Source of the DNA: a virus
Direction: 5' to 3' (one strand)
Virus record (IMG/VR): IMGVR_UViG_3300043438_000288
Location: 1 to 42,797 of that record
DNA length: 42,797 nt
Positions 1,563-26,239 of this stretch are shown one piece after another (the stretch's first letter is position 1; each line of letters begins with the position of its first letter). Position numbers and translations under genes: made by a program. The notes beneath the pieces were generated by a model. It ran no database searches and was not told where the DNA came from. It saw only the letters and a list, made by a program, of their open reading frames with translations.

Positions 1563-3581
1563 GTGGACCAAATTAAGTCGCAGGTCGATACCCTGTCTGA
1601 ACTTAGTGATGAGCAAGTCTCAGAACTTCAGACCGCTATCGTTAGCGAATTTGAGAAGGTCGAGTCTCAGGACATTTCTCCAGAAACAGTTGACGCTATG
1701 TCATCCCTCGCCGATATGCTGGACACCGTAAAAGGTGACATCCAGCGTAGAGAACTCCAAGCAGAGGAACTCGCTTCGCGTGCTTCTGAAGCCGCGATGC
1801 GCGTTAAGGGTGAGGGTGAAGGCGATGTGGCTCAGGGTGAAGGTAACGATGTTGCCCCAATGGAAGAAGTAGTTCCAACCGACGAGCCAGTCGTTCCTGC
1901 TGAGGAAGAACCAAAGCCAGAGGGTGAAATGGGCGAAATGCCTGTTACTCCTGAGGATGAGGATTCCCCAGTACCTGCTGAAGAAGAGGAAGAGAAAAAG
2001 CCTATGATGGGCGAATACTCGACTGACACTGCTGTAGAAGCGTCAATTACTACTGAAGAGACCCTAGAGTTCTCAACCGATGCTACCCCAGAGGTAGTAG
2101 AACCAACCGAGGCTGACGAAATCGTCACCGAGGAAGCAACCCCAATCGAAACTCCAACCGTTGAAGAAGTTCAACAGGAAGAACAGGTTCCCGTGACCGC
2201 AGCAGCAGAAGAGGGCTTCCAAGCCCCTGTTGACCGTCAGCCTGTTATCCAGGTTAATGAAGTTGCTACAGTGGCAATCACTGCTGGCGCAGACATCCCA
2301 GGATACACAGCAGGTAGCACAATTGACAGCATCCAAGATGTTGCTGTCGCAATGGAGAAGAGAATTCACTCTCTTCGCCGTGTAAATGGTGGAGATGGTG
2401 AACAGCACATCGTTGCTTCGTTCTCTACCTCTTACCCAGAAGAGAGAACCCTCTCAACCGACGCCGAGTCGAACAAGGCAAAGATTGATGCCGTAGTTGG
2501 CCAGCAAGCACTTATCGCTTCTGGTGGACACGCAGCACCATTCGAGGTCAAGTACGACATCTTCGGTCTAGGTTCGACCACTGACCGCCCAGTCCGCGAC
2601 CTTCTTCCGAAGTTCCAGGCTGACCGTGGTGGTGTTCGCTTCGTAACCCCTCCAACAATCATTAGCCTAACGAACGCAAACGCAAACGCTGCTTCGGTTT
2701 ACGACTACGCCAACGCTGTTGGTCTATGGAACGAAACCACCGCAACACCTAGCGTTGCATCGTTCACGAACGACATTGGTGACAGCACCACTACAGTCAA
2801 GGGAAGCCTTACTGTATCAGCCGCTGCCGAGAATGTTGCTCAGACTGACGCTGTAACCCTACAGTTGCAGTTCGGTAACCTAATGAGCCGTGCCTACCCA
2901 GAACTAATCGCTCGTCACAACGAGTTGGGTCTAGTACAGCACGCTCGTGAGGCAGAACTAAACCTAATCAACAAGATTGGAACCGCATCAAAGGCTGTAA
3001 ACGCCCACGCTGCTACCACTGAGGCAGCAAGCCTTATTGGTGTCGCTCGCGACTTCCTAATCCAAGTTCGCAAGGCTTCTGTTGCTTACCGTTCGCGTCA
3101 CCGTATGTCACCGCAGACTCGCCTAAAGGCGATTATTCCTGCGTGGATTTACGACGCTATGGCTTCTGACTTGGCTCTAAATATGCCAGGCGACGGAAAC
3201 CTAGGCGTAGGCGAGAACGAAATCAAGGGCTACCTAGCAGGAAGCAATGTCGACCTAGTCGCATCGCTAGACCTGAACTCGTTTGGTGCTCAGCCTGGCG
3301 CTTCTGCCAAGTTGCTTGAGTTCCCAGACTCGTTCTCTTGGTACCTATTCGCAGAGGGAACATTCTTGTTCCTAGACGGTGGAACTCTTGACCTTGGTAT
3401 TATCCGTGACTCATCACTGGTAAACACCAACGACTACAAGATGTTCATCGAAACCTTCGAGGGTATTGCCTTCGTTGGTGTGGAATCACTAAAGATTACC
3501 ACAAACATCAGCGTCAACGGTGTGGCTGCGGCTCTACGCGACACCACTGGTGGTGCAACCGCTGCTGCTATCGAAGAGTAA
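1563..3581 (+). CDS. Major capsid protein with long acidic N-terminal extension
   Basis: This 672-residue protein is the probable hexamer-forming major capsid protein (HK97 fold). The GTG start is supported by AAGGAGG a few bases upstream. Residues 1-75 are predicted helical and charged; residues about 80-215 are a low-complexity Glu/Pro/Val/Thr stretch (for example VPAEEEPKPE and EEEEEKKP); from about residue 219 (FQAPVDRQPV) the sequence becomes a globular capsid-like domain with typical capsid motifs such as TDRPVRDLLPKFQADRGGV and VGVESL near the end. Its position directly after the maturation protease and its length support the call. The N-terminal third resembles a fused scaffolding (delta) domain that the protease would remove; the cleavage site cannot be read from the sequence. 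Other actinophages have capsid proteins with this helical, acidic N-terminus. Confidence 0.8.
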   Translation: MDQIKSQVDTLSELSDEQVSELQTAIVSEFEKVESQDISPETVDAMSSLADMLDTVKGDIQRRELQAEELASRASEAAMRVKGEGEGDVAQGEGNDVAPMEEVVPTDEPVVPAEEEPKPEGEMGEMPVTPEDEDSPVPAEEEEEKKPMMGEYSTDTAVEASITTEETLEFSTDATPEVVEPTEADEIVTEEATPIETPTVEEVQQEEQVPVTAAAEEGFQAPVDRQPVIQVNEVATVAITAGADIPGYTAGSTIDSIQDVAVAMEKRIHSLRRVNGGDGEQHIVASFSTSYPEERTLSTDAESNKAKIDAVVGQQALIASGGHAAPFEVKYDIFGLGSTTDRPVRDLLPKFQADRGGVRFVTPPTIISLTNANANAASVYDYANAVGLWNETTATPSVASFTNDIGDSTTTVKGSLTVSAAAENVAQTDAVTLQLQFGNLMSRAYPELIARHNELGLVQHAREAELNLINKIGTASKAVNAHAATTEAASLIGVARDFLIQVRKASVAYRSRHRMSPQTRLKAIIPAWIYDAMASDLALNMPGDGNLGVGENEIKGYLAGSNVDLVASLDLNSFGAQPGASAKLLEFPDSFSWYLFAEGTFLFLDGGTLDLGIIRDSSLVNTNDYKMFIETFEGIAFVGVESLKITTNISVNGVAAALRDTTGGATAAAIEE

Positions 3582-3684: not shown

Positions 3685-4773
3685 ATGGCTTTCCCAAAGA
3701 ATGGCGTTGTAGAGGCAGGAAAAATTGTGCCCTCCGCTTTCGGCTTACTCGCCGTAATCAAGCCTGAAAATTCGGCTGACGAAGACCGCTGGGTTCGTGG
3801 CTTCTCTCAAGAATATGAGACCACTGTAAACAATTTGAAAAACTGGGATGACTCGGACACCGTTAGTTACACTCTTGTAAACAATGCAACCGTAAATTAT
3901 TACGATGAAATTAAACCTTTCTTTGTTGAAATTGATGAAGTCCGCTCTACTCTAGGTTTTCTAGGAATTGACAGAATTAGTCGCCTAAAGCGTCAACTTG
4001 AGGGAGTAACTCAAAAGGCTATAGAGCGTGAACTTTGGAATGGCGATATTCGCATCGCTGATGGACACGACAACAAGGCTTTAGTTGGAGGGGCAACTGT
4101 TGTAAATTCTGGAGTCGCACTTTCTGCTAAGCGTGCGCTAGCAGTATTAGAGCATTCAATTGCTGAAGTTTCTCATGGCGGGGAGCAGGGAATTATCCAC
4201 GCTACTCGCGATGTAGTTGCTCTTTTATCTAGCAACTCAAATATGCTTTTTCACGAAAAAGATAAAGACCACCTACAAACTATGGGCGGAACTCCAGTTA
4301 TTGTGGGCTCTGGCTACAGTGGCGATGGACCTCGTATCGCTGTTGCTACAGCAGCCATTTCGACAAACACTACTCTAACTCTAAACACTTCTTCTGCTCA
4401 CTACTTGGTTACTGGAGATACAGTCAGATTTGCAGTAGATGGCGCAAATGTTGACCAAAGTTCTGCCTCAGCAACAGTAACTAAGGTAGACGCAGATACT
4501 GTAACAATAACTATTGCCAGTGCCACTAACGCTACTTCCGAGGCAGTTACTGGATACATTCAGCAGTTGGGTACAGAATCTACAAAATGGGTTTACGCAA
4601 CTGGCAATGTCAAGGTCTACCTTGGTGATGTCGATATCGTAAATGACAACCTAGGTCAAGGTTATGACATAGCAGGAAACAAAAATGAAATCAGACTAAA
4701 GGCAATCCGACCTGCTGCGGTTTACTTTGGCACATCCATCCACCTCGCTGTTCGGGTCGACCTAACAGTTTAA
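3685..4773 (+). CDS. Second capsid protein, probably pentamer subunit, with inserted beta-module
   Basis: This 362-residue protein follows the major capsid gene and is preceded by AAGGA. Some actinophage groups carry a hexamer capsid protein of about 600 residues followed by a pentamer protein of about 360 residues; length and position match that pattern. The first 210 residues look like a compact capsid-type fold (VRGFSQEYETTVNNLKNWD, FLGIDRISRLKRQLEG, LFHEKDKDHLQTMGGTPVIV). Residues about 221-281 form a Thr/Ser/Val-rich insertion with the pattern SSAHYLVTGDTVRF, a beta-module that recurs in the tail proteins of this window. The C-terminus (IRLKAIRPAAVYFGTSIHLA) returns to the capsid-like domain. 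The pentamer role is inferred from gene order and family precedent; a decoration protein is the alternative. Confidence 0.55.
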   Translation: MAFPKNGVVEAGKIVPSAFGLLAVIKPENSADEDRWVRGFSQEYETTVNNLKNWDDSDTVSYTLVNNATVNYYDEIKPFFVEIDEVRSTLGFLGIDRISRLKRQLEGVTQKAIERELWNGDIRIADGHDNKALVGGATVVNSGVALSAKRALAVLEHSIAEVSHGGEQGIIHATRDVVALLSSNSNMLFHEKDKDHLQTMGGTPVIVGSGYSGDGPRIAVATAAISTNTTLTLNTSSAHYLVTGDTVRFAVDGANVDQSSASATVTKVDADTVTITIASATNATSEAVTGYIQQLGTESTKWVYATGNVKVYLGDVDIVNDNLGQGYDIAGNKNEIRLKAIRPAAVYFGTSIHLAVRVDLTV

Positions 4774-4792: not shown

Positions 4793-5923
4793 ATGGCTAC
4801 TCAAGAATATGCTGCTAGCATCCAAGGCGTGTCAATCCGTGTCACACGCCTAGACGCTGCTGGCAACCTGCTAAACGGGGCTGGTGACTCTTACACTACT
4901 TCAGCCTTCCTACGCGTTTCGTTTACCCCAGAGTATGAGGAAGGCGATGAAATCACCGAGAAGTCAGCAAACGGCACGGTTTGTGTGACATACAAGGCTC
5001 CAGACACACTGAAGCGTATCACTATGGAACTCGCAATCTGTGAGCCAGATGCTGAACTCTCACAACTTCTATCTGGCGGTCTACTTCTTCGTAAGAATGT
5101 AGATGGCGTCGTAAAGAGCGTTGGTTGGGCAGCACCTGGTGTGGGCGATGACCCAGCAGGTCACGGTGTCGCTATCGAGGCTTGGTCTCACGCAGTCAAG
5201 GATGGTAAGCGTGCTTCTGTATTGCCTTACTTCCACTGGGTCTTCCCATATGCCAAGTTGCGTCAATCAGGTGACCGTGTAATTGAAAACGGTATGCTAG
5301 CCACAACCTTTGAGGGTTATGGTCTTGGAAACCGCAACTTCGAGTCAGGCGTAGATGGTCGCTGGGAGTTCCCAGTTGCCGCAGAGCGCCCTTACTCGTA
5401 TGCTCGCGCATCTTGGGCACCTGTGGGTCTACAAGGCTTCTACACTTGGACTGACAACTCTGGAGACGCATCGTTCTTTACCGCTGGTGGAAACATTCAG
5501 GGTCAGACCACTCCTTACATCACCTCTGTTACAGCAGTCAACACTACAGCCACTGTTATCTTTAGCGCGGCTCACAACATTGCTACTAGCGACAAGGTAT
5601 ATGTATCTGGCACTGGCGAGCCTTTCAACACCATCACTTCTGGTGTTGCTGCTACCAATGTCAACTCGACTGCAATCTCGTACACCATCGCAAATGTTGG
5701 TGGTACCACTCTTACAGCCACTCTTGACAAGTTCAGCCGTGTGTCACTTGTTGACTCTGCTACTGAGGGTGACCCTAGGTACCTTGCAGTCACTACCACA
5801 GCAATCGACACCAAGTACTCTAATGCTAGCGGAGATGTTGAGGCTGGTTACAATGTTCCTGGTAACTTGGACTACAACGCTGACTCGAATGTCGACTTTA
5901 TCATCAAGTCAAACGAAGACTAA
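4793..5923 (+). CDS. Major tail tube protein A
   Basis: This 376-residue protein is one of two adjacent paralogues. The start is preceded by AAGGAG. Residues 1-226 (MATQEYAASIQGVSIRVTRL to FYTWTD) are about 96% identical to the next gene and form the presumed tube domain. Residues about 242-302 carry a beta-module (FSAAHNIATSDKVYVSGTGE), and the last 70 residues (TATLDKFSRV to FIIKSNED) are again shared with the paralogue. Major tail proteins with a C-terminal Ig-like or beta-module decoration are common in siphoviruses. The assignment rests on position between capsid and tape measure, size and probable high expression; no tube-specific catalytic motif exists to confirm it. Confidence 0.65.
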   Translation: MATQEYAASIQGVSIRVTRLDAAGNLLNGAGDSYTTSAFLRVSFTPEYEEGDEITEKSANGTVCVTYKAPDTLKRITMELAICEPDAELSQLLSGGLLLRKNVDGVVKSVGWAAPGVGDDPAGHGVAIEAWSHAVKDGKRASVLPYFHWVFPYAKLRQSGDRVIENGMLATTFEGYGLGNRNFESGVDGRWEFPVAAERPYSYARASWAPVGLQGFYTWTDNSGDASFFTAGGNIQGQTTPYITSVTAVNTTATVIFSAAHNIATSDKVYVSGTGEPFNTITSGVAATNVNSTAISYTIANVGGTTLTATLDKFSRVSLVDSATEGDPRYLAVTTTAIDTKYSNASGDVEAGYNVPGNLDYNADSNVDFIIKSNED

Positions 5924-5938
5924 GGAGAACTGTTCTAA

Positions 5939-7498
5939 ATGGCAACTCAGGAATACGCAGCCAGCATTCAAGGTGTGTCTATTCGCGTAACGCGACTAGA
6001 CGCCGCTGGCAACTTGCTAAATGGTCCAGGTGACTCGTACACCACATCTGCGTTTATGCGTGTGTCTTTCACACCAGAATACGAAGAGGGCGACGAGATT
6101 ACCGAAAAGAGTGCCAATGGAACTGTATGTGTAACTTACAAGGCTCCTGACACTCTCAAGAGAATCACTATGGAGTTGGCTATCTGTGAACCAGACGCTG
6201 AACTTTCTCAGTTGCTCTCTGGCGGTCTCTTGCTTCGCAAGACCGTTGACGGCGTTGTGAAGTCTGTTGGTTGGGCTGCTCCAGGCGTCGGAGACGACCC
6301 TGCTGGAAATGGTGTAGCGATTGAAGCATGGTCGCACGCTGTGAAAGATGGAAAGCGCGCGAGCGTTCTTCCGTACTTCCACTGGGTCTTCCCTTACGCA
6401 AAACTTCGTCAGAGTGGTGACCGCGTTATCGAGAACGGTATGTTGGCTACCACATTTGAGGGCTACGGTCTAGGCAACAAGAACTTCGGTTCTGCTGTTG
6501 ATGGTCGTTGGGAATTCCCTGTAGCCTCTGAGAGACCGTACTCTTACTCAAGAGCATCTTGGGCACCTGTCGGACTTCAAGGATTCTATACTTGGACTGA
6601 CCAGGCTTCTTACCAGTCATTCTTCACTATCGGTGGGATTCAAGGTGCTACCACGATTGCTATAACTGGCATTAGTGGCTACGATAATTACCGCGCTGTG
6701 ACTCTAGGTAGTAGCACTGTTACCTCTGGAATTGCCAATGGAGACAAGGTTTATGTCAACAACTGTGGCGAGCCATTCAACACCAGCACAGTGGGCGAAT
6801 CAGTAACATCGTTGAACTATGTCGCTGGCACCGCTACGGCAAATGTGACAGCATCAAATACCACCATCACTGTTGCTAACACCGCTGGTTATGTTGTTGG
6901 TCAGGACATCTTCCAATTGAGTGGGACTGGGACACTTTCCAACACCACGATTGCCACAGTAGTAAATGCTACTGCTTTCACTGTAACCGCAGCACCAAGC
7001 GCAAGCGGTACTTTGACCTTTGGTCTAGTCGGTATGGGTGCTACTGCGAATGTGGCTGTATCAAATACTACTATTCAAGTGGTCAGCACTGCTGGTCTAG
7101 TTCCTGGTATGACTATTGCCAAACTCGTTGGTGGTGCCTCTCTTGCCAACACTACAATTGCAACTATTGTAAATGCAACAGCATTTACAGTAACTACTGC
7201 TCCTACAGTTCTTGGAAACCTAGCATTTAGCATCAATGGTGGAAACGCTTTCTACTATTCAAACTACCCAACCACTGCCAACTTGTCATCTGCTCTAACA
7301 GCAACCCTAGACAAGTACAGCCGTGTAAACCTAGTTGATAGCATCACCGAGGCTGGCTCTTACACCCCAGTCACCACAACTCAGATTGACACTCAGTATG
7401 CTAACGGTGCTGGTGAAGATACTTACAATGTCCCTGGCGGATTGAACTACAACGCCGATGCAAATGTTGACTTCATTATTAAGTCAAACGAGGACTAA
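5939..7498 (+). CDS. Major tail tube protein B, paralogue with tandem insert
   Basis: This 519-residue protein starts 15 bp after protein A, with TAAGGAG overlapping the preceding stop codon. Its first 220 or so residues differ from A at only about nine positions (for example A30P, L40M, N102T, H123N), yet most codons differ synonymously. The extra length lies in the C-terminal half: two tandem repeats of about 69 residues (nt 6827-7033 and 7037-7243; shared motif SNTTI, NTTIATxVNATAFTVT) are inserted inside the region equivalent to A's beta-module, after the shared motif GEPFNT. The C-terminus NVDFIIKSNED matches A. The two proteins probably co-assemble in, or differentially decorate, the tail tube; which one is the main tube protein cannot be told. 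Confidence 0.65.
   Translation: MATQEYAASIQGVSIRVTRLDAAGNLLNGPGDSYTTSAFMRVSFTPEYEEGDEITEKSANGTVCVTYKAPDTLKRITMELAICEPDAELSQLLSGGLLLRKTVDGVVKSVGWAAPGVGDDPAGNGVAIEAWSHAVKDGKRASVLPYFHWVFPYAKLRQSGDRVIENGMLATTFEGYGLGNKNFGSAVDGRWEFPVASERPYSYSRASWAPVGLQGFYTWTDQASYQSFFTIGGIQGATTIAITGISGYDNYRAVTLGSSTVTSGIANGDKVYVNNCGEPFNTSTVGESVTSLNYVAGTATANVTASNTTITVANTAGYVVGQDIFQLSGTGTLSNTTIATVVNATAFTVTAAPSASGTLTFGLVGMGATANVAVSNTTIQVVSTAGLVPGMTIAKLVGGASLANTTIATIVNATAFTVTTAPTVLGNLAFSINGGNAFYYSNYPTTANLSSALTATLDKYSRVNLVDSITEAGSYTPVTTTQIDTQYANGAGEDTYNVPGGLNYNADANVDFIIKSNED
6827..7243 (+). repeat. Tandem repeat of about 69 codons in tail protein B
   Basis: Two consecutive copies of a Thr/Ala/Val-rich beta-module are seen in the translation, both ending in a version of NTTIATxVNATAFTVTxAP. 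The copies are similar in protein but clearly diverged in DNA, so this is an old duplication. The copies lie at about 6827-7033 and 7037-7243. Confidence 0.75.
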
Positions 7499-7510
7499 TA
7501 GTTAGATAGG

Positions 7511-7554
7511 AAGGCGGCGAGATTGGTTGATTTTCTTCCAATTCTCGTCGCCTT
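7511..7554 (+). terminator. Long hairpin after the tail tube genes
   Basis: The left arm 7511-7526 (AAGGCGGCGAGATTGG) pairs with 7538-7554 over about 16 bp with one G-U and one bulged base. It lies in the 77-bp gap between tail protein B and the adaptor gene. The 3' side is only pyrimidine-rich (ACTTCTTACC), so it may be a weak terminator or a 3'-end stabiliser for the abundant capsid/tail tube mRNA. Confidence 0.6.
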
Positions 7555-7575
7555 ACTTCTTACCTAAGGATAGAT

Positions 7576-8682
7576 ATGACTGCTTTATGGATTCAGCCAG
7601 AAGAGTTGGGCGACTACGCCAACTCTGAGTATGCGCTGGAGGCTGCTAAGACTGCATCTCATCTTTTATGGGCTATGTCTGGTCGTAAATATTCAGGAGA
7701 AACTATTGTCACGGAACGCTACACTTGTGTACTTCGTCGCTCCCGTTTAGGCTCCTCCAACAAAAACACAGACGGCGTTTTGTTTGGTGGGACTGTCTAC
7801 AACATTCCGTCTGCCGATTTTGACTACGACGAGTACTCTTCTCTAACCGTAGACGGTATCTCACCTGAATCTAGAATCAAGTTGCGTGGCGGTCCAGTAA
7901 CTAGAATCATCACAATCAGAAACCGAAACGGTTCTTTGATTGACCCAACAAGTTATTACTTAGTGGACCACTCGACTATCCATGTGAGCCTAGCCACTCC
8001 TTGGACCCCTTGTAATACTGAAGTTACTTATGCTTATGGTCAGAACCCACCTACATCTGGAAAAATGGCAGCCCGCACGCTAGCCATTGAATTTGCCAAG
8101 TTGTGGTCTGACGATGAAACTTGCGCTCTCCCGCAACGCGTAACTTCTGTCTCGCGACAAGGTGTCTCTTTCACTATTCTTGACCAGCAGGACTTTATTC
8201 AAGAACTGCGTACTGGTCTTTATGCTGTTGACTTGTTCCTAAAGACTGTCAACCCAGATGGTGCTAGAAGGAAGACTAAGGTCTACTCTGTAGACACCCC
8301 GCGAGCCAGAAGATACAACCCTAAGGAACTGGTCTACACAACTGGCGTAAAAGACCTAATTGTCCCACCTGGTTCGGGCAACACTGGAACTGTGACTTTA
8401 GGCTTAGCAAACATCAATGCCACTTTCTTGACTAGCCAAGCAGGTTGGACACCAGCCCTAACTATCAAGAGTTACTCAGGCATTAAGTCTCAGACTCTCG
8501 CTAACACTTCGGCAAATGTCAATACCTCGGCTTCTACAATCACCCTGTCCTCTGGCTATTCAGAAACACTGGCCACCATAGGTATGGTCGACCCCGGCAC
8601 TTGGGACTTATACGCTACCCACACAAATAACAGCGTTGTGCTGATTACTAGCGGAAACCTAAAAATCAACCTAAACGGTTAG
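7576..8682 (+). CDS. Head-to-tail adaptor with C-terminal beta domain
   Basis: This 368-residue protein has AAGGA ahead of its start. Residues 1-250 resemble the adaptor (gp6/gp15-like) proteins that sit under the portal: a helical N-terminus (WIQPEELGDY, EAAKTASHLLWAMSGRKYSG), a central beta region (VTRIITIRNRNG, STIHVSLATPWTPCNTEVTY), and a helical section (GKMAARTLAIEFAKLW, RVTSVSRQGVSFTILD) ending at LRTGLYAVDLFLKTVNP. Residues about 260-368 form an additional Ser/Thr/Asn-rich beta domain of immunoglobulin type, probably exposed at the neck. It is unusual that the adaptor follows the tail tube genes. Assigned from motif resemblance and from the neck genes that follow it. Confidence 0.65.
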   Translation: MTALWIQPEELGDYANSEYALEAAKTASHLLWAMSGRKYSGETIVTERYTCVLRRSRLGSSNKNTDGVLFGGTVYNIPSADFDYDEYSSLTVDGISPESRIKLRGGPVTRIITIRNRNGSLIDPTSYYLVDHSTIHVSLATPWTPCNTEVTYAYGQNPPTSGKMAARTLAIEFAKLWSDDETCALPQRVTSVSRQGVSFTILDQQDFIQELRTGLYAVDLFLKTVNPDGARRKTKVYSVDTPRARRYNPKELVYTTGVKDLIVPPGSGNTGTVTLGLANINATFLTSQAGWTPALTIKSYSGIKSQTLANTSANVNTSASTITLSSGYSETLATIGMVDPGTWDLYATHTNNSVVLITSGNLKINLNG

Positions 8683-16953: not shown

Positions 16954-19900
16954 ATGGCAGAGAACGAAGTTACATATAGGTATTTCATTACCAACATTGT
17001 TACTAATGAAGTAATCGCTGAAATTCCCCTAACTGGGGTCTCCTACGACCGAGCCCTAAAAGATGCTGGTTCTTTTTCTGGAACTATTTCTCTAACCCCC
17101 GAGATAGAGGGTATTGATGTCTATGAGTCCACTATGCCGGGCAAAAACGCAATCTATGTTTTACGAAACGGCGAGTGTGTTTGGGGCGGACCAATTTGGT
17201 CTAGAAGTTACGATGTAGTTGGTAAAACCATAAGCATTAATGCTAACGAGTTCACAAGTTACTACCAGCACAGAAAAATTTGGAAAACTTGGAACCTAAC
17301 TCACAGCAACACTTTAGTATATGTAGACCCGAAAAAAAGTTCCCAACTGATTGTCGAGTTAAACCCTGACACTAAAGAAACCATCACCATTGAAGAGGGC
17401 GTGGCGGTCGAGTTATCTTTTACTGATAAAAAGGGCTACAACCTAAATGGTCATTTTAGAGTAAATAGGGACTTTGTAAACGCCACTAAAATTACGGTCG
17501 ATAAAGAGGCTCTGCAATGGAATGTGCCTAATGTTTCTCACACTTTTGCCACGGTGGGTAGCAGAATAAATGTGACAAAAAGGCAGGTAACTGCTGGCAG
17601 TAAAGAAGTAATTATTACCACAGACGATGCCCACTTGTTGGCTGTTGGGGATATGGTAAATATCAAAAATCTTGAATCCAAAGTGGATTTTGAGGGTTAT
17701 AAGACATACAAGACACTGCCTACCGAGTACCCGCTCGCTGCTTTCGACTCCACATCTATAAAATACATAGTCGGGGAGGTGGCTGAAGGCAGTTACACCG
17801 TTAATGTCCCTAGTACTAGGGGGATTAGCGAAGGTGCCAACATTACTCAGATTCCGTATGTTGGCGGAAAAATTACGGGAGCATCGCAACCAAAACTTAA
17901 TCCTGAAGGTGGTATTCCGACTGACGGATTTAGGACAACCGTAACCAAGGTAATAAACGCCACCAGTTTTAAATTTAGTGCTTACGCTGCTGGCACTGAT
18001 GTGAACAAGCCAGCCTATAGAGACGGAAAAGTATACCTAAAAATTCAAAATAAGAGTAGCGGATACAACGCTGGTACTAGGGAATACACTATGCAACCAG
18101 CAAACAACACTTGGAAGGGGAAAGTAGGCAAGGGCGGTTACATAAAGACGAATGGCGTACAAAAATATGACGGTAGCGGATTAGACCCAATCTTTGGCGA
18201 TTTACCTACTAATAATGTTTCTTTCAGCAATGTAAACGCCGTTCAGGGCGAAAAAGTCCTAACAATTTCTTCCACCACTGGGCTACAACAGGGTTTTGTT
18301 GTTGAGCAAGTCCCGCAGGAGGGAGTAGCAACTGTGCTTAGCGACTGCACAATTGAAGAAGTTATTGGGAACAATAAAATTAGAGTCAGTTCGGCACCGA
18401 CTTACGATGCGACTATAAAAATTGTAGTGAAGTCGCCAAGGTATCACAAGATAACTGGACTTACGACCGCTAAAATGCCTCAGTCTATGGGCGAGTATTA
18501 CTTTGAAAAAGGCTCTACGGATTTTGTCGGCGTGCCAGCATTTAAGTTTTACTACCCTAAGACAATTGTTAAGGGGGCAGGATATCAGTATCCGATATCA
18601 AACGCGACTTTTAATATAGTTTTAGAAGAGCAACACGAGTTTCCGTACACAAGAAGTAGGACTGCCGCTTGTGCCAATGGTGACCAGCCCGTAATAAAAG
18701 TTATTGACCGTAAAACTTTTGTTGTGAATGGAGATTGTGAGCCAGCAAAATATGACGACATCAACACCAATCAGCCCACGACAACCATTGCTTGGGATGG
18801 TAAGTATCAAGCAACTATGTACACTCACACTGACACTTATGAGCAGGTTCGCTATTTCTTGGGTAAAGTTCACGAAGACTTCGTTACCGTAAATGCCAAT
18901 AACCCGTTCCTAGGAAACTTAGAAAAGTATCAAATTAGAACTGCTAAGTACGACCCAGCGACCGACTTGGCTACAATTACTACTGGATTCAAGCAGTCAG
19001 TATATAGTAAAAAAATATACTGCGATTACAACAGTGGCGACCCTAGAATTGTCGCAAGAGTCTCTCTCTACGACCCATACACTCAGTTTGACACCACTAA
19101 TGATGTCGGCGAACTGATAAAAATTACTGGCTCTGACCAATCTATAAATGGCACTTTTTACATAAAGACCATAGAGCCAGTGACTAAATCTTATGTTGAG
19201 TACATTTTGAACTCAAAAGAGCAAGACTTGATTGGTTATTCTCTTTCTACAGTCAGCGCAAACGGCACCTACATAACTTTCACCACATCTTCTGCTCACG
19301 GCATCAGGGCAGGTAATTTAGTTACAGTGGGCGGTCTCAGTGTGACGGCGCTCAATGTTGACAATGCTCTAGTAGTCGATACTCCAACATCTACAACTAT
19401 TAGAGTTGCGTCTACCGTGGCAAACGGAACTTCAGACACTACTCCGCTGTCTAGTATTTTTACATCTGACCGCCTAGTCAACAACACAGTGCTACCGCTA
19501 AACTCTTCTATCGCCACCTTTGGGGCGCACGACTTGTCAGTTGGCAATAACTTTGAGTTGACTGGACTAACTATTGAAAATTATGACGGTGTTTGGTCAG
19601 TAAATAGTGTTATAGATGAAGTTACTTTTACCTATAAGCCTAGTTTTGAAAGACTAAATATTACTGATTTTAGGCTGGATTACACCACGCAAAACGGCTA
19701 CATGGTTACAGTAAAAATCCATAAGAAGCCAAACTTCCAAAAGTACTCCTACATCGCGGGTGAAACAAAAATCACGGTAACCGAGTTAGACGGTTCGGGC
19801 TATGACTATAACGGAACATTTGTCCTACAAAGTTTTAAGCCTACGGATGATACAGAAGATTACTACTACTTTAGTTACAAACTAAGTGGCGCAAACGGTA

Positions 19901-21594
19901 CTCGAAAAACTCACCCTTGGAGAAAAGTAGACTATGAAATTAGAAAAACGGGCTCTTCTAAGACAATTAGCGCCGCTTCCTATGTCAGACAACTCATAGA
20001 TGACGATAACAATGCTAAAACCGCTAAAAGCCCTAGCGGTAAGGGAGTAACTACTTACACAACAAGCGCTTCCCACTCGCTAAACGCTGGTGATTACGCG
20101 GTTGTCTCTAACATCGGTGGCGAGTTTACTCAAAAAACCGCCAATGCCAATGCTTTCTCCGAATACATAGTCCAAGTGTCTACAGTACCTACTGGCACCA
20201 CTTTCACTGTTAGCAACGAAACTGACGCAACTAATAGAAGCCTGTGGCAACTAGCAGGACTCGCAGGTACTAAAAAAGATGTTGGAAAGGCTAACACTAG
20301 CATCACCCCCACTGGTGCTACCGTTATTTCTTACGACCCGTCTCCGTCTAGACCTAGTTCAAGTTACCCGTCTCTAAAAATTGATGACTTGCCTGATGTA
20401 ACCGCAAAAACTGAACTTACTTCTCTTGTTACTGGAAAAGCGTTCAATGCTAAAACTAAGACCGTCTACTTACAGTTATCCAGCAACCAAGGATTTGTAG
20501 TAGGTCAAAATGTGATTGTAGAAGATGTAGATGACTACAAAAACGACATTTTTGACGGTACTTACAAAATAACTGGTTTTGAAAAAGTTGGAAACAAGTT
20601 CCAACTTAGGTATCAGTCGACAAATAAGTCGTATAAGAAAAACATAGGCGAGTTTGATTCTAAAAATAAATTAGAAGATTATTCACCACTGCTCGCTGCT
20701 TCTCCAGGAAAAGTTGTTGTAGACGCTGCCGTTTATGTTGGCAGTTATGGCTCATTTACTGGGAACTCAGACATTGACTTAGAGTTCTCGACATATGAAA
20801 ACTCAGGCAACTACCAAAGAGTCCCGTCTTACAGAGGGCACGAACTAAAAACTGTAGGCGATTACTTATCTGAGTACTCTGACAAGTACATAGTAAAACC
20901 AAACAGCACCAAAGTAGTTAGAAATGTATACGGCTTTGAGTACCGAATCGATTGTGTATACGACAAGGTAAATGGTTCTTTTAGAAGAATCTTCAAATTC
21001 CTGCCGATAAACTACCCGAATCCGCCTATCCACGGAGAGGTATCTCCTCCAAGCCGTTTTGGTGCTGACAAGTTTGTATTTGAGTACCCAGGCAACATCA
21101 GTAGTGTGACATTAGACGAGTCTGCTGAAGAGGCTTCTACTAGGTTCTTTATGGTCGGCAGTGATGGTGGTACTGGAACTAGCGATGCTTCTAAGTCATA
21201 TATTGGCGTTGCTCATAAGGAATTGTTGGCTAATAGTTGGCCACTACTAGACTCCACTGAATCTGACGATAAATTAGATTTTTTGAGAGATATTTCTGAA
21301 AATGCATACAGATACCTAAACGAAACTAAACCGCCATCTGGAGTTTTCCAAATTGGTGTTGTCGGAAATCTAGACCCGATAGTCAATACATACCAGCCCG
21401 GCGACTGGTGCAGTATTATAGTTAATGACAAGTTTGTTCAAGACAGACTAGCAAGCGACTTAGAGCCTAGAAATGATGTCATTGTGAGAAAGATTCTTTC
21501 GTATAGCGTTGGTGTTCCAGACGCTCCGTCAACGCCTGAATCTGTGTCTCTAAGTCTTATTACCGAGTGGGATGTGGATAACCGTGGCCAGTAA
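16954..21594 (+). CDS. Gp37-like tail hub protein split by an array of beta-modules
   Basis: This 1,546-residue protein has the two ends of an actinophage Gp37-like (tail hub/baseplate) protein. Residues 1-118 (VSYDRALKDAGSFSGTISL, KNAIYVLRNGECVWGGPIW, ISINANEFTSYYQHRKIW) match the N-terminal hub part. Residues about 1275-1546 (SYRGHELKTVGDYLSEYSDK, YEFRID-like YGFEYRIDCVYD, FEYPGNISSVTLDESAEEAS, YQPGDWCSIIVND) match the C-terminal hub part. Between them lies roughly 1,150 residues of Thr/Ser/Asn-rich beta-modules, many with an HG/HS-x(5-8)-G-(D/N)-x-V pattern (for example SSAHGIRAGNLVTVGG, ASHSLNAGDYAVVSN). Family members are usually near 500-600 residues, so the insertion roughly triples the length. 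It overlaps the next gene by about 11-23 bp. Confidence 0.7.
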   Translation: MAENEVTYRYFITNIVTNEVIAEIPLTGVSYDRALKDAGSFSGTISLTPEIEGIDVYESTMPGKNAIYVLRNGECVWGGPIWSRSYDVVGKTISINANEFTSYYQHRKIWKTWNLTHSNTLVYVDPKKSSQLIVELNPDTKETITIEEGVAVELSFTDKKGYNLNGHFRVNRDFVNATKITVDKEALQWNVPNVSHTFATVGSRINVTKRQVTAGSKEVIITTDDAHLLAVGDMVNIKNLESKVDFEGYKTYKTLPTEYPLAAFDSTSIKYIVGEVAEGSYTVNVPSTRGISEGANITQIPYVGGKITGASQPKLNPEGGIPTDGFRTTVTKVINATSFKFSAYAAGTDVNKPAYRDGKVYLKIQNKSSGYNAGTREYTMQPANNTWKGKVGKGGYIKTNGVQKYDGSGLDPIFGDLPTNNVSFSNVNAVQGEKVLTISSTTGLQQGFVVEQVPQEGVATVLSDCTIEEVIGNNKIRVSSAPTYDATIKIVVKSPRYHKITGLTTAKMPQSMGEYYFEKGSTDFVGVPAFKFYYPKTIVKGAGYQYPISNATFNIVLEEQHEFPYTRSRTAACANGDQPVIKVIDRKTFVVNGDCEPAKYDDINTNQPTTTIAWDGKYQATMYTHTDTYEQVRYFLGKVHEDFVTVNANNPFLGNLEKYQIRTAKYDPATDLATITTGFKQSVYSKKIYCDYNSGDPRIVARVSLYDPYTQFDTTNDVGELIKITGSDQSINGTFYIKTIEPVTKSYVEYILNSKEQDLIGYSLSTVSANGTYITFTTSSAHGIRAGNLVTVGGLSVTALNVDNALVVDTPTSTTIRVASTVANGTSDTTPLSSIFTSDRLVNNTVLPLNSSIATFGAHDLSVGNNFELTGLTIENYDGVWSVNSVIDEVTFTYKPSFERLNITDFRLDYTTQNGYMVTVKIHKKPNFQKYSYIAGETKITVTELDGSGYDYNGTFVLQSFKPTDDTEDYYYFSYKLSGANGTRKTHPWRKVDYEIRKTGSSKTISAASYVRQLIDDDNNAKTAKSPSGKGVTTYTTSASHSLNAGDYAVVSNIGGEFTQKTANANAFSEYIVQVSTVPTGTTFTVSNETDATNRSLWQLAGLAGTKKDVGKANTSITPTGATVISYDPSPSRPSSSYPSLKIDDLPDVTAKTELTSLVTGKAFNAKTKTVYLQLSSNQGFVVGQNVIVEDVDDYKNDIFDGTYKITGFEKVGNKFQLRYQSTNKSYKKNIGEFDSKNKLEDYSPLLAASPGKVVVDAAVYVGSYGSFTGNSDIDLEFSTYENSGNYQRVPSYRGHELKTVGDYLSEYSDKYIVKPNSTKVVRNVYGFEYRIDCVYDKVNGSFRRIFKFLPINYPNPPIHGEVSPPSRFGADKFVFEYPGNISSVTLDESAEEASTRFFMVGSDGGTGTSDASKSYIGVAHKELLANSWPLLDSTESDDKLDFLRDISENAYRYLNETKPPSGVFQIGVVGNLDPIVNTYQPGDWCSIIVNDKFVQDRLASDLEPRNDVIVRKILSYSVGVPDAPSTPESVSLSLITEWDVDNRGQ

Positions 21595-24500
21595 TAGAAG
21601 TAGAAAATTTAGGTCGATTACTGGTCGTATATCTGAATTAGATAAGCAAGTCGGTGAGATTAACAGAATCTCTCAGAGCGTCACCGACGGTCTTGGCTTA
21701 GACGCCGTATCTTCAGATGCTATCTTAAGCGGTGCCGTAGGCTCAGATGCTATAGAGACCCAATCTATTACTGCCGATAAAATTGCTCCCAGCGTGTTCC
21801 AAACCGCCTCATCTGGGCTACAAAGAGTGCCAGCACCACTAACAGCGGTAAACTACTGGAACTCGGCAATTTACGGAAACATTACTGCTTTCTCTGAGGC
21901 TTATTTTGCCGATAAAGAGAATAAAAATGTCTCGGTTTCTGCCTTAGGAATCACTTTTAGTCCTGAAAAAAATAGCAATGTAATTGTTAGCACTGCTGAA
22001 CTGCAAAGTGGCGGTCTAGTAATGATTGAGACTAGGATTGCCCACGGCTATGAAATTGGCGACTACATCACAGTAACTAACCTAGGCTCGCCTCTAGACG
22101 GCGAGTGGGTAATTACAGATGTACCAACTGCCACATCTATCTCATACAACATAAACCAGTTTGAAGAGGCAATTACAAACTTAGATTTTTCCGCTGGTGC
22201 TTACATAGATGTTGGAGAAAACGAGACAGACGGTTCTGGGTATAGACAGTCCATCATACAAAAATCTTTTATTGGTGGTGTAGCCACGCTAACTCTCTTT
22301 GACCCACTTGATAGTAATCCTGACACCTCATCTAGCCACGGATATACGGCTGGTTATGTTATAGATGTTGTCGGACTGGGCTCGCCTTATGACGGCACTC
22401 AAGTAATAACTGCTATACCCGATGGAGAACCTAACTCCTTACAGTATCGACCAGACGAAGGAACTATTCCTGAGTTCATTCCTAGGATAGTTTTAGACTC
22501 TGGCTGGGGAGACGGTGAGTCAATTGTTTACTCAACTGCTCGGGATGCTACTGCTACAGACATATTTCACGGTCTATCCGTAAATCAATATGTGGAGATA
22601 ACTGGATTTACAACTAACACTGGATACAACATCACAGGTCAGGTAAGCGGTGTCTTTGGTTCTGGCACCAGTTTTACTCTGCCCTCTACGGTTACTCCAA
22701 CTGTTGATGCCCCTGAAACTGGTGGAACTTATTACTGCTACAAGGGAGAGGTGAAAGCCGAGGCTGACGCTGTCTTGTTCCTTACTGGTGTCAATCCAGT
22801 CCCCGCCAGTAGAAATGTAGTAATAAGTTGGATAGCAGACAAACCTATAGATTTTAGGATTGTTGTGTGGGACTCCGAGCAACCAGACTCCCCCAAATTC
22901 TTGGAGGTGGATGCTGACACGACTGAGAGTATTTCTACAATTTTTGGTCTGAACACCTACATATGGGAAGTCCCTGAGGGCATATTCCAATACGCTGTCT
23001 ACGCTGAAGTGCTGTCTGGTAAGGAAGATGTCTTACTGGAGGAGTGTTATGTGTTTGAGTCTGTAGGTGACTCATCCAAGATGATAGAAAAAATCACTGG
23101 TGCTTATGTAGATGCTGTAGCAAATAACGCCAATAAAGTGACCTTTTTTACTGCCGCATCTCACTCTCACGAACTAGATGACGCTGTAAAAATTAGCGGA
23201 GTAGACATTATTTCTAACGCCGCTAGTCAAGAGTTCCGAGTAGAGTCTTTCTCAGACGATAAAAGAAGTTTTACTGTCTCGGTGCCAGTGGTAGACATTC
23301 AAGTTGCTACGGTTAGCGGTAGCAATGTCGTTACAACGCTAGGAACTTTGGACCCAGTATCCGAGACTGTAAAAAATCAAAACATCTCTGGACTAATTTA
23401 TGTCGGACAGCCTTACACTTCTAGCAACACTACCGCTCTGCCAAACGGCACTGTCACCGAGATACTTAAGAGCGAGTTATATAGCAACACTGCTACTAGC
23501 ATTGGTGCCACTCTCGTTGCTGGGAACACTACAGTCACCCTATCTAGTGGAAATACCGAAGGAATTACCGCTGGCCAGCGAGTAACAAAAATAAGTGGAA
23601 CTGGAGTCTTTGGTAATTCTGGAACAGTTTTTGTTGCTTCTGTACCTAATTCAACTGCCTTTATTGTCGATACTGCTCACGCTACCTCTGGGGCTGTGGT
23701 TTTCAACACAGCAATCACTTCTTTCAATCACGACTCTTTCTCTGTGGCTAATAACAGTGGTGCTACAAACTCTTCTGTAGTTCTATCTTTCTACTTACCG
23801 CAGACTGGTTCTACTCCTGCTAAAACTGGACTAATAGCGACACTAACTGCTGGCTCTAACGCTGTGACGCTAACTACAGGAAATACGGACACTAATTTTT
23901 CTGTAGGTCAGTTGCTGACTAAAACATCTGGCACTGGAGCATTTGGCAATACTGGTGCGGTTTATGTGACAAGTATTACTAGCAATACAGTGTTCACTGT
24001 AGATGCCAACCACGAAACATCTGGCTCTATAACTTTTGGGACCACGGCTCAGAACGCTGCCATAGCACTAAAAGGTTCTTCCATTGGTGGGCATAAAAAA
24101 AATCAGTCTGCCATCATCAGTCCTAGTGGGTTGGCTATCACATCTCTATCTGGTCAGGCTGTGAATCTTACTGACGACAGCACCGACAACTATGTTGCGG
24201 TGTACAACGCTAATTCTGTGGCAGTTGCTGAAATTTCAAATACTGGAACTGGGACATTTACAGGGATTATTGCTGGTCCAATAGAAGCCACAACTGTAGG
24301 CACAACTTTGCAACCAGTCGAAAGTATTACTAGCGATAATGTAATTTCTAGTTCTGCGACTATTCAAAATTTGACAGCCAATACTCTTAGTGCCACCACT
24401 CTTAGTGCCAATACAGACATCCTCATATCTAACACAAATACCTATGTAATTGGCAGTTTTTCTAATGCCACATACAATAACAACACTGCCTACACTGGCT

Positions 24501-26239
24501 CTTACCTAGACAGATTGGCTAGAGGAGTTATTTACCACTCCTACTGGGATATTCCAACTACTAACATCCCTAGCGGAATTATGTATTACGGACTTGCTAA
24601 CGGAACATTTAACCTTGAGAGTGGCAGAGCGTATCAAATGTTTGTTGGGGCTGGTGGTCTAAGACTTACCCCTAACCAAAATGTGGCTATGGAGTTGTTG
24701 CTCAGCCCTGCCCCAATCAAGGTTACTGACACTAATGAGTTTGGTCGTCTGTCATTTGTGCTACCCACTACTGGTGGCACTAACCAATACTTCAGGGATA
24801 TGATTGGCTACTTCCAAAGTGTTCCTGCCACTGGTTCTACTTTTGCTAGCGGGGTGACCACAAACCTGACTAGCGCGACAATTAGCAGTTGGTCTAAAGG
24901 CACTGGTAGCAGTACAGTAACAGTCACCCTCTCTAACGCTACTCCTCTAACTAACTACTTAAAAACTAATGACTATGTTTCTATTAGCAATGTTGTCCCA
25001 GCAATTTCTGGAGAGAGCGCCCTATACAACGGCATTTTTCAAATAACTAAAGTCAACAACTCGGCGTTTACATATGTACACGGCGGTGCTACAACTCCTA
25101 GCGCAAGCAATAGTGCTGGAAATGTTGTCCTAGTGGAGCCTCAATTGCTAGACACTGCTGCTACTTTTTCTAACACTTCAGGAGCCACTTCTACCGCAAA
25201 TACTATTTCCTTTGCAATAAGAAACTACTTTGTCCCCGGTCAAAGAGTAAGCGTTACTGGATTCTCCGCCCCTAACACTGCTTGGAATGTTACTGATGTC
25301 TTTGTTACTAGCGCAAATGCCACCAGTTTTACTGTATCTTCTAATGCTATTGCTGGCGTATGTACATCTCCTTGTGTAACTGCCACTGTCACTTGGACAA
25401 ATAATCAACTTGAAGTAAACAAGACTGTCTTACCAGCGCAGACCACAATTTATTGGATTTTGAGACTAAGACACGGCTCTAACACAAATTCGACTTCCAC
25501 CATTGTTACAACTGGACACCCTGCTGGAATCTTCTCTATCAGTGATATGGGTCAGGCTAAAACACTCACTTACTCAGCCCCTACTCAAGACTGGACAACT
25601 GGATTCCCACCTGCCCTCAAGTCTGGTGGTGCCACTTCCCCCGCGACAAACACCACTACCAGCACTACCACTACTTTTACCACTACTCTAACCGTCACAT
25701 CTGCGGACAGTGCTTACTACGATAACTACGGTAAGGGCGATGGCGGGACTTCAGACCCGTACACCAACGAGCAGAGCCTCTATCAAGGAAATCCTGGAAC
25801 GGCTTCTGGAACAAAGAAGTCGGCTGTACTGTTTACCGCATATTCTTATCCTGGTGCCCACGCAAATAACAGGGTAATTACAAAGGTAGAGGTTTATCTA
25901 AGAAATAGACACTCATACAACTCTGGAGGTCTAACAACAAGAATCGGTCTCTCTACTGCCACATCTTTGGGCTCTTCTATACCTACTACTGGAGTGACCG
26001 CTGGTCCAACCCCTACTAGCACCACTTTCACTAAGGGTCAAGGTAAGTGGGTGACTCTAGGTAGCGGATTCCACACATACGCTAACGCGACTTCATTCAG
26101 GACTATTCTCATCAGCCTCACTGACCAAAGTCCAATTACCTATGACTCAACTATTAGCAACTACGGATATTTTGATGGAGACCTACAATCTGACCCGCCA
26201 AAACTTCGTATTACCTATACCTACGATGTAACAACATAA
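21572..26239 (+). CDS. Very large minor tail protein / probable receptor-binding fibre
   Basis: This 1,555-residue protein could start at ATG 21572 or at the in-frame GTG 21584; neither has a strong Shine-Dalgarno and both overlap the upstream stop. The N-terminus (RISELDKQVGEINRISQSV, then SDAI/GSDAI/TADKIAPSVF) is typical of fibres that attach to a hub. The middle holds many beta-modules (for example IAHGYEIGDYITVTNLG, SSHGYTAGYVIDVVG) and a tandem pair at nt 23501-23709 and 23831-24042. The last 190 residues or so, from YDNYGKGDGGTSDPY, look like a separate beta-sandwich tip (FTAYSYPGAHANNRVITKVE) and are the likeliest receptor-binding part. Function is inferred from position, size and composition. 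Confidence 0.6.
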   Translation: MWITVASNRSRKFRSITGRISELDKQVGEINRISQSVTDGLGLDAVSSDAILSGAVGSDAIETQSITADKIAPSVFQTASSGLQRVPAPLTAVNYWNSAIYGNITAFSEAYFADKENKNVSVSALGITFSPEKNSNVIVSTAELQSGGLVMIETRIAHGYEIGDYITVTNLGSPLDGEWVITDVPTATSISYNINQFEEAITNLDFSAGAYIDVGENETDGSGYRQSIIQKSFIGGVATLTLFDPLDSNPDTSSSHGYTAGYVIDVVGLGSPYDGTQVITAIPDGEPNSLQYRPDEGTIPEFIPRIVLDSGWGDGESIVYSTARDATATDIFHGLSVNQYVEITGFTTNTGYNITGQVSGVFGSGTSFTLPSTVTPTVDAPETGGTYYCYKGEVKAEADAVLFLTGVNPVPASRNVVISWIADKPIDFRIVVWDSEQPDSPKFLEVDADTTESISTIFGLNTYIWEVPEGIFQYAVYAEVLSGKEDVLLEECYVFESVGDSSKMIEKITGAYVDAVANNANKVTFFTAASHSHELDDAVKISGVDIISNAASQEFRVESFSDDKRSFTVSVPVVDIQVATVSGSNVVTTLGTLDPVSETVKNQNISGLIYVGQPYTSSNTTALPNGTVTEILKSELYSNTATSIGATLVAGNTTVTLSSGNTEGITAGQRVTKISGTGVFGNSGTVFVASVPNSTAFIVDTAHATSGAVVFNTAITSFNHDSFSVANNSGATNSSVVLSFYLPQTGSTPAKTGLIATLTAGSNAVTLTTGNTDTNFSVGQLLTKTSGTGAFGNTGAVYVTSITSNTVFTVDANHETSGSITFGTTAQNAAIALKGSSIGGHKKNQSAIISPSGLAITSLSGQAVNLTDDSTDNYVAVYNANSVAVAEISNTGTGTFTGIIAGPIEATTVGTTLQPVESITSDNVISSSATIQNLTANTLSATTLSANTDILISNTNTYVIGSFSNATYNNNTAYTGSYLDRLARGVIYHSYWDIPTTNIPSGIMYYGLANGTFNLESGRAYQMFVGAGGLRLTPNQNVAMELLLSPAPIKVTDTNEFGRLSFVLPTTGGTNQYFRDMIGYFQSVPATGSTFASGVTTNLTSATISSWSKGTGSSTVTVTLSNATPLTNYLKTNDYVSISNVVPAISGESALYNGIFQITKVNNSAFTYVHGGATTPSASNSAGNVVLVEPQLLDTAATFSNTSGATSTANTISFAIRNYFVPGQRVSVTGFSAPNTAWNVTDVFVTSANATSFTVSSNAIAGVCTSPCVTATVTWTNNQLEVNKTVLPAQTTIYWILRLRHGSNTNSTSTIVTTGHPAGIFSISDMGQAKTLTYSAPTQDWTTGFPPALKSGGATSPATNTTTSTTTTFTTTLTVTSADSAYYDNYGKGDGGTSDPYTNEQSLYQGNPGTASGTKKSAVLFTAYSYPGAHANNRVITKVEVYLRNRHSYNSGGLTTRIGLSTATSLGSSIPTTGVTAGPTPTSTTFTKGQGKWVTLGSGFHTYANATSFRTILISLTDQSPITYDSTISNYGYFDGDLQSDPPKLRITYTYDVTT
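23501..24042 (+). repeat. Two related 70-residue modules in the fibre gene
   Basis: The module at about 23501-23709 and the one at about 23831-24042 share the order LVAGNTTVTLSSGNT / LTAGSNAVTLTTGNT, SGTGVFGNSGTVFV / SGTGAFGNTGAVYV and ATSGAVVF / ETSGSITF. They are separated by about 40 residues and are diverged in DNA. Confidence 0.65.

Follow-up and report, generated by a model that had tools for sequence, protein, structure and literature searches.

The window analysed here is the whole 42,797-nucleotide stretch of IMG/VR virus record IMGVR_UViG_3300043438_000288, and all features described below lie on its plus strand. Two consecutive genes for major tail (tube) proteins (MTPs) sit between the gene for an upstream 362-aa protein (3685..4773; phrog_779, function unknown) and the head-tail adaptor gene (7576..8682; phrog_783, E 3.6e-34), with the major capsid protein encoded at 1563..3581 (phrog_777, E 5.3e-71); these three neighbours served as clocks. 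MTP-A (4793..5923), the plain isoform, has 376 aa and matches phrog_792 in its tube part at E 3.9e-23. MTP-B (5939..7498), an isoform with an inserted, putatively beta-rich module, has 519 aa and matches phrog_792, likewise in the tube part, at E 1.5e-22, with phrog_6005 (virion structural protein, E 4.9e-11) as its second profile match. The position between capsid and adaptor is that of the MTP in other phrog_792 relatives. The earlier note had placed the pair at 4793-6620, which takes in the whole of gene A but only the tube part of gene B. Pfam has no family for A or B, a PDB sequence search with the MTP returned no match up to E 1, and the structure model of B (mean pLDDT 56.6, too poor to use) matched nothing in the PDB at E 0.001. 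The assignment of both proteins to the tube therefore relies on profile matches and gene order.

At the A-B junction (5921..5938) the stop codon of A overlaps the AAGGAG ribosome-binding site of B, a layout that is the same in eight B-type leaders (the window, L006, L007, L010, L012, L018, L028 and L046). As each copy has its own ribosome-binding site, these are two separate genes and not a frameshift product. We found no hairpin between the copies at this junction, and a stable RNA hairpin follows B at 7512..7553, where the stretch 7496-7575 folds at -30.7 kcal/mol (z -4.9). Together, the overlap of B's ribosome-binding site with the A stop codon and the presence of a hairpin only after B suggest that A and B are co-transcribed. 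Strong folding downstream of the last MTP gene was seen in all 124 distinct relatives listed (MFE -29.9 to -43.6); the consensus hairpin has 14 pairs, 12 of which show two-sided changes, in 21 sequences. The hairpin lacks a classical T run and occurs in the twin phages after B only. It is probably a conserved terminator or attenuation point, or an RNA-stability element, closing the capsid-MTP unit.

The two tube parts (codons 1-221 of each gene; 4793..5455 in A and 5939..6601 in B) are 95.9% identical in amino acids and 75.4% in nucleotides, in agreement with the identity of about 96% over some 220 residues that the earlier note had read from the sequence. Its count of 17 synonymous differences and no amino-acid change in the first 29 codons is exact. 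In a tube alignment of 228 codons, 214 residues and 86 codons are identical, and third positions agree at 89 of 228. Over the 221 residues, the same codon is used at 40.1% of identical residues and 69.3% of 114 4-fold sites differ, which is the opposite of the low silent divergence that would have spoken against the note's reading. We compared codon identity with an independence expectation obtained by shuffling the codons of B between positions with the same residue, and found 76 of 203 identical codons where 80.5 +/- 5.6 were expected. NG86 gave a dN of 0.074 and a dS beyond estimation. What the note had called nearly saturated is thus at the random level, and the silent sites of A and B are fully saturated.

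The same pattern recurs in the other phages with two copies. The 4-fold difference was 0.598-0.717 in all nine within-phage rows compared (three of them the same pair, one partial), at about 96% protein identity, and six pairs shared 72-86 identical codons where 78-93 were expected under independent codon choice. The longest exact run between the copies is 20 nt in the window and 15-21 nt across the six pairs. Single-copy pairs at 95-96% protein identity differ at a mean of 26.6% of 4-fold sites (17 pairs, maximum 42%), and even those at 80-85% protein identity differ at a mean of 46% (1099 pairs, maximum 62%). Codon identity exceeded independence in 300 of 300 sampled single-copy pairs (minimum z 1.88, median 4.97). 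For the 4-fold and independence comparisons we removed from the single-copy set the locus L012, which carries the last part of an A gene at its upstream end. No orthologous pair examined among the single-copy relatives combined near-identical protein with randomised codons as A and B do.

The pair, or its B-type member, is present on at least 12 IMG/VR contigs. At least ten besides the window show both copies (L004, L005, L006, L007, L008, L010, L012, L018, L028 and L046), among which L012 retains only the end of A, L028 only a later part of A, and L008 a cut B; in L086 and L094 the B-type gene is cut by the contig start. Six distinct pairs have both starts present, with a start-to-start spacing of 1127-1146 nt. 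In L046 (6001-7179), the first 660 nt of the A gene are the same as in L010; after about nt 690 the frame shifts and the gene runs into B, through either a sequencing error or a real variant. Five scans of viral contigs, from each of which the best 80 of 505-529 relatives were kept, together yielded 368 loci, the window among them and several to a contig. Among the matches listed, 18 loci had two hits, all from the same twin contigs, and a second MTP copy was absent from 109 of 109 distinct single-hit N-domain DNAs with flank room on both sides (135 distinct single-hit sequences in total, of which the 26 others, including L012, stood outside this count). The nearest named phages, Actinomycetia phage DSL-LC01 and the group of Microbacterium phage Pumpernickel, share the family and the gene order (capsid, unknown gene, MTP, head-tail adaptor) but, unlike the window, carry a single MTP gene. 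An Actinomycetia host is predicted for DSL-LC01 in a lake metagenome paper (PMC10611076). The twin phages probably form one clade of siphophages, and their hosts are probably freshwater actinobacteria; for the window, an actinobacterial host follows solely from kinship to DSL-LC01.

The copies also differ in their C-terminal parts. That of A is colinear with the single-copy proteins and 52-53% identical to those of L009 and L011 over 160 columns. Residues 286-455 of B (6794..7303), the stretch that holds the inserted module, comprise two repeat units in the window and one in most relatives, and their extra length is absent from A and from single-copy L009 and L011. Accordingly B is 519 aa long in the window and 445-446 aa in L006, L007, L010, L012, L018, L028 and L046, and A is 371-376 aa long (392 in L046 through the frame change). 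The low-confidence structure model suggests that the module is beta-rich. Residues 286-455 also resemble stretches of the 1555-aa product of 21572..26239, in local matches that reach 30% identity over 160 aa (E 3e-13, with neither composition correction nor masking). This ORF had no match among PHROG families; from its position and its B-insert-like repeats it is a probable tail fibre or baseplate protein.

Long MTPs (446-629 aa) also occur in single-copy L092, L106, L121, L135, L169 and L171, with C-terminal parts that, except in L092, are largely unrelated to the B insert. By sequence, tube decoration appears to vary widely across the MTP family. A and B were the only close paralogues among the 35 ORFs of the window that we compared. 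The long adjoining ORFs at 16954-21594 and 21572-26239 and two 607-aa proteins were considered as second duplications, and neither set proved to be close paralogues.

We built trees with homologues from sets that omitted L004, L005, L084 and L085, whose copies are identical to the window pair, as well as L008's truncated B, L028's partial A, L086 and L094. The third-position tree, the protein tree and the silent path lengths used 26 of 69 distinct single-copy rows, and in these later sets the L010 pair consists of A of L008 (the same DNA) and B of L010. At third positions A and B fall into separate clades, each with 100/100 support, and forcing them together costs 1.3 log units (AU 0.47, not rejected). 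The protein tree keeps A and B together at 90/90. With the two held together, the silent root-to-tip length was 0.60 for A and 1.01-1.03 for B, compared to a single-copy bootstrap mean of 0.63 from the neighbouring fork; A's path thus equals that of single-copy genes and B's is about 1.6 times as long (bootstrap difference B minus A 0.06-0.81).

The stem shared by A and B is zero at third positions and 0.047 in protein, so the order of duplication and radiation does not come out cleanly. A protein stem with no silent counterpart could reflect erasure by saturation or parallel replacement in both copies. Parallel replacements do occur: both L006 copies have Pro at codon 2 and still differ at its silent site (CCT, CCA), and L007 and L018 each have Ser at codon 87 in both copies. 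Most simply read, the duplication falls near the origin of the twin lineage and is of about the same age as the radiation of the family. An old duplication with both copies under purifying selection, one of two accounts that the earlier note had offered, is supported by the presence of the pair across a diverse clade, by the separate A and B clades and by the absence of gene conversion tracts, as within-phage windows do not exceed cross-phage windows.

We also asked how tightly the protein is held. The protein/silent ratio of the twins amounts to 0.28 (0.19-0.40) times the single-copy value, and the same quotient between twin clade and single-copy relatives is about 0.66 for the capsid (2 pairs), 0.66 for the adaptor, 0.31 for a 167-aa gene and 1.04 for the upstream gene. 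The low ratio of the MTP is therefore partly lineage-wide, since neighbouring genes are lowered too. Per unit of adaptor or 167-aa-gene protein divergence, the MTP diverged by about 0.36-0.49 in the twins versus 0.45-0.48 in the singles. Purifying selection on the MTP is strong in general, and a tightening specific to the twins is not clearly seen. As a separate observation, distant relatives differ less at silent sites in their capsid (1563-3581 and orthologues) and MTP genes than in the adaptor and the genes after it, which points to codon selection on highly expressed genes or to their exchange between phages.

The other account in the earlier note was that divergent DNA was itself selected, because it stops the copies from recombining. 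Here silent changes that lower A-B identity would have been favoured against copy deletion, mostly early and mostly in B. Our tests of runs, odds ratios, independence and clade rates gave this no firm support. The longest identical runs, short as they are at 15-21 nt in the six pairs, are no shorter than in permuted codings, and A departs from the family codon independently of B (odds ratio 0.84-1.41, near 1 rather than below it). Codon identity lies below independence in four of six pairs but above it in the other two (L010 and L046); the lowest P was 0.036 by amino acid and 0.009 with the family codon held, and within family-codon strata two of six pairs (L006 and L018) have less codon identity than independence predicts, at P about 0.01. 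Among the twin phages themselves, A and B change at silent sites at the rate of neighbouring genes with no excess, the MTP/adaptor silent ratio being 0.80 among A and 1.00 among B (single-copy 0.71, 10-90% range 0.33-0.97). Two observations lean weakly toward selected divergence. When A and B copies are paired across phages, most pairings share more codons than the within-phage one does (rank 5 of 120). The silent stem of B is also long: its stem/crown ratio of about 1.9 slightly exceeds the range of three neighbour genes (0.51-1.75), in which the ratio of A (about 1.3) falls. The fast silent change of B is, however, explicable by lower expression: in the window, codon adaptation is 0.673 for A, near the capsid's 0.693, and 0.576 for B, and it is lower in B than in A in five of five pairs (0.515-0.630 versus 0.631-0.719; single-copy mean 0.712). 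Weaker codon selection on B, if it is expressed less, is enough to account for its long stem, but room is left for early selected divergence there. We regard selection for divergent DNA as quite improbable overall, and doubt to the same degree its specific form of codon scrambling, by which silent changes in B were favoured after duplication until no usable shared run was left (now at most 21 nt) and then returned to the normal rate.

The remaining alternatives concern where the second copy came from. B (or A) could have been acquired from an unsampled relative of the single-copy phages, with the proteins alike through fit to the same tube. The trees do not show such a transfer, which the earlier note had named as a refuting case, but the protein data do not reject a grouping of B with the nearest single-copy genes (AU 0.14); moreover, B joins an unresolved backbone via its long stem, and acquisition would also accommodate the lack of a shared third-position stem. 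The same grouping is rejected for A (AU 0.03), and L011, the closest single-copy gene compared, is only 90-92% identical to the A and B copies, which are 94-97% identical to each other. Single-copy pairs at such protein identity show a 4-fold difference near 0.27, not 0.67. Acquisition is therefore unlikely in our estimate. An assembly artefact joining two related strains in one contig must be considered because all twin records are metagenome assemblies, with no isolate among them, yet it is hardly credible: the same order, spacing and isoform asymmetry recur in six distinct pairs from separate metagenomes, and a silent distance this large at this level of protein identity is matched by no strain pair in the collection.

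Multiple MTP genes in actinophages are already known. Several clusters are reported to have two (PMC11080557 and PMC10652937), and the former paper names clusters EL, AM, AU, AW, BI, CC and DJ as having multiple major tail protein genes; the pair resembles EL-type actinophages in having more than one MTP gene, close together, in the structural operon. Microbacterium phage Camille (MH153800; L371 10906-14404) has three annotated homologous and nearly adjacent MTP genes that are 42-48% identical. Unlike the window pair, which belongs to phrog_792 and is about 96% identical in the tube part, the Camille proteins belong to phrog_2645 and have no significant similarity to MTP-A, and Camille is a separate case of MTP multiplication. 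Phage SPP1, according to PMC8718954 and PMC7666168, makes two tube isoforms (gp17.1 and gp17.1*) at 3:1, the long one by translational frameshift and with a C-terminal FN3 domain that is dispensable for infection and proposed to contact the cell wall. As in SPP1, two predicted isoforms share a common tube domain here and one has an extra, putatively beta-rich domain. In contrast to SPP1, there are two complete genes here instead of one gene with a frameshift, and the extra module lies inside the C-terminal part rather than at the C-terminus. Searches of open-library literature for twin or duplicated tail tube genes, and for duplicates that diverged in their codons, returned no title or abstract describing the pair, which is a further instance of MTP multiplication with a distinct pattern.

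Taken together, we think it probable that an old tandem MTP duplication, kept as a plain A and a decorated B under purifying selection while silent sites drifted to saturation, supplies a tube of two isoforms. The MTP gene would have been duplicated in tandem in the ancestor of one siphophage clade; A would retain the ancestral form, and B would have gained in its C-terminal part a putatively beta-rich module related to repeats of the same phage's fibre-like protein. If the tube parts of A and B fit the same hexameric rings, the protein would stay near constant as silent sites drift, and such co-assembly would explain why the tube parts remain alike. The virion tube would then consist of plain A, probably the major form, and decorated B, probably the minor one, comparable to SPP1. 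We infer this co-assembly, as well as the ratio of the two forms and a function for the decoration; codon adaptation hints that A is the major form. Since the two copies in a phage are only 75% identical in DNA and share no exact run above 21 nt, homologous recombination would be unlikely to remove one of them, a stabilising effect that we also infer and that would be a by-product of age.

The pair points to a second route to a plain and decorated tail tube, by gene duplication instead of frameshifting. It also offers a natural gauge of how long about 96% protein identity persists after silent sites have been randomised, which is useful for judging claims that recoding stabilises duplicates. 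If the scrambling was selected, the pair would represent a selected solution for keeping near-identical structural proteins in tandem.
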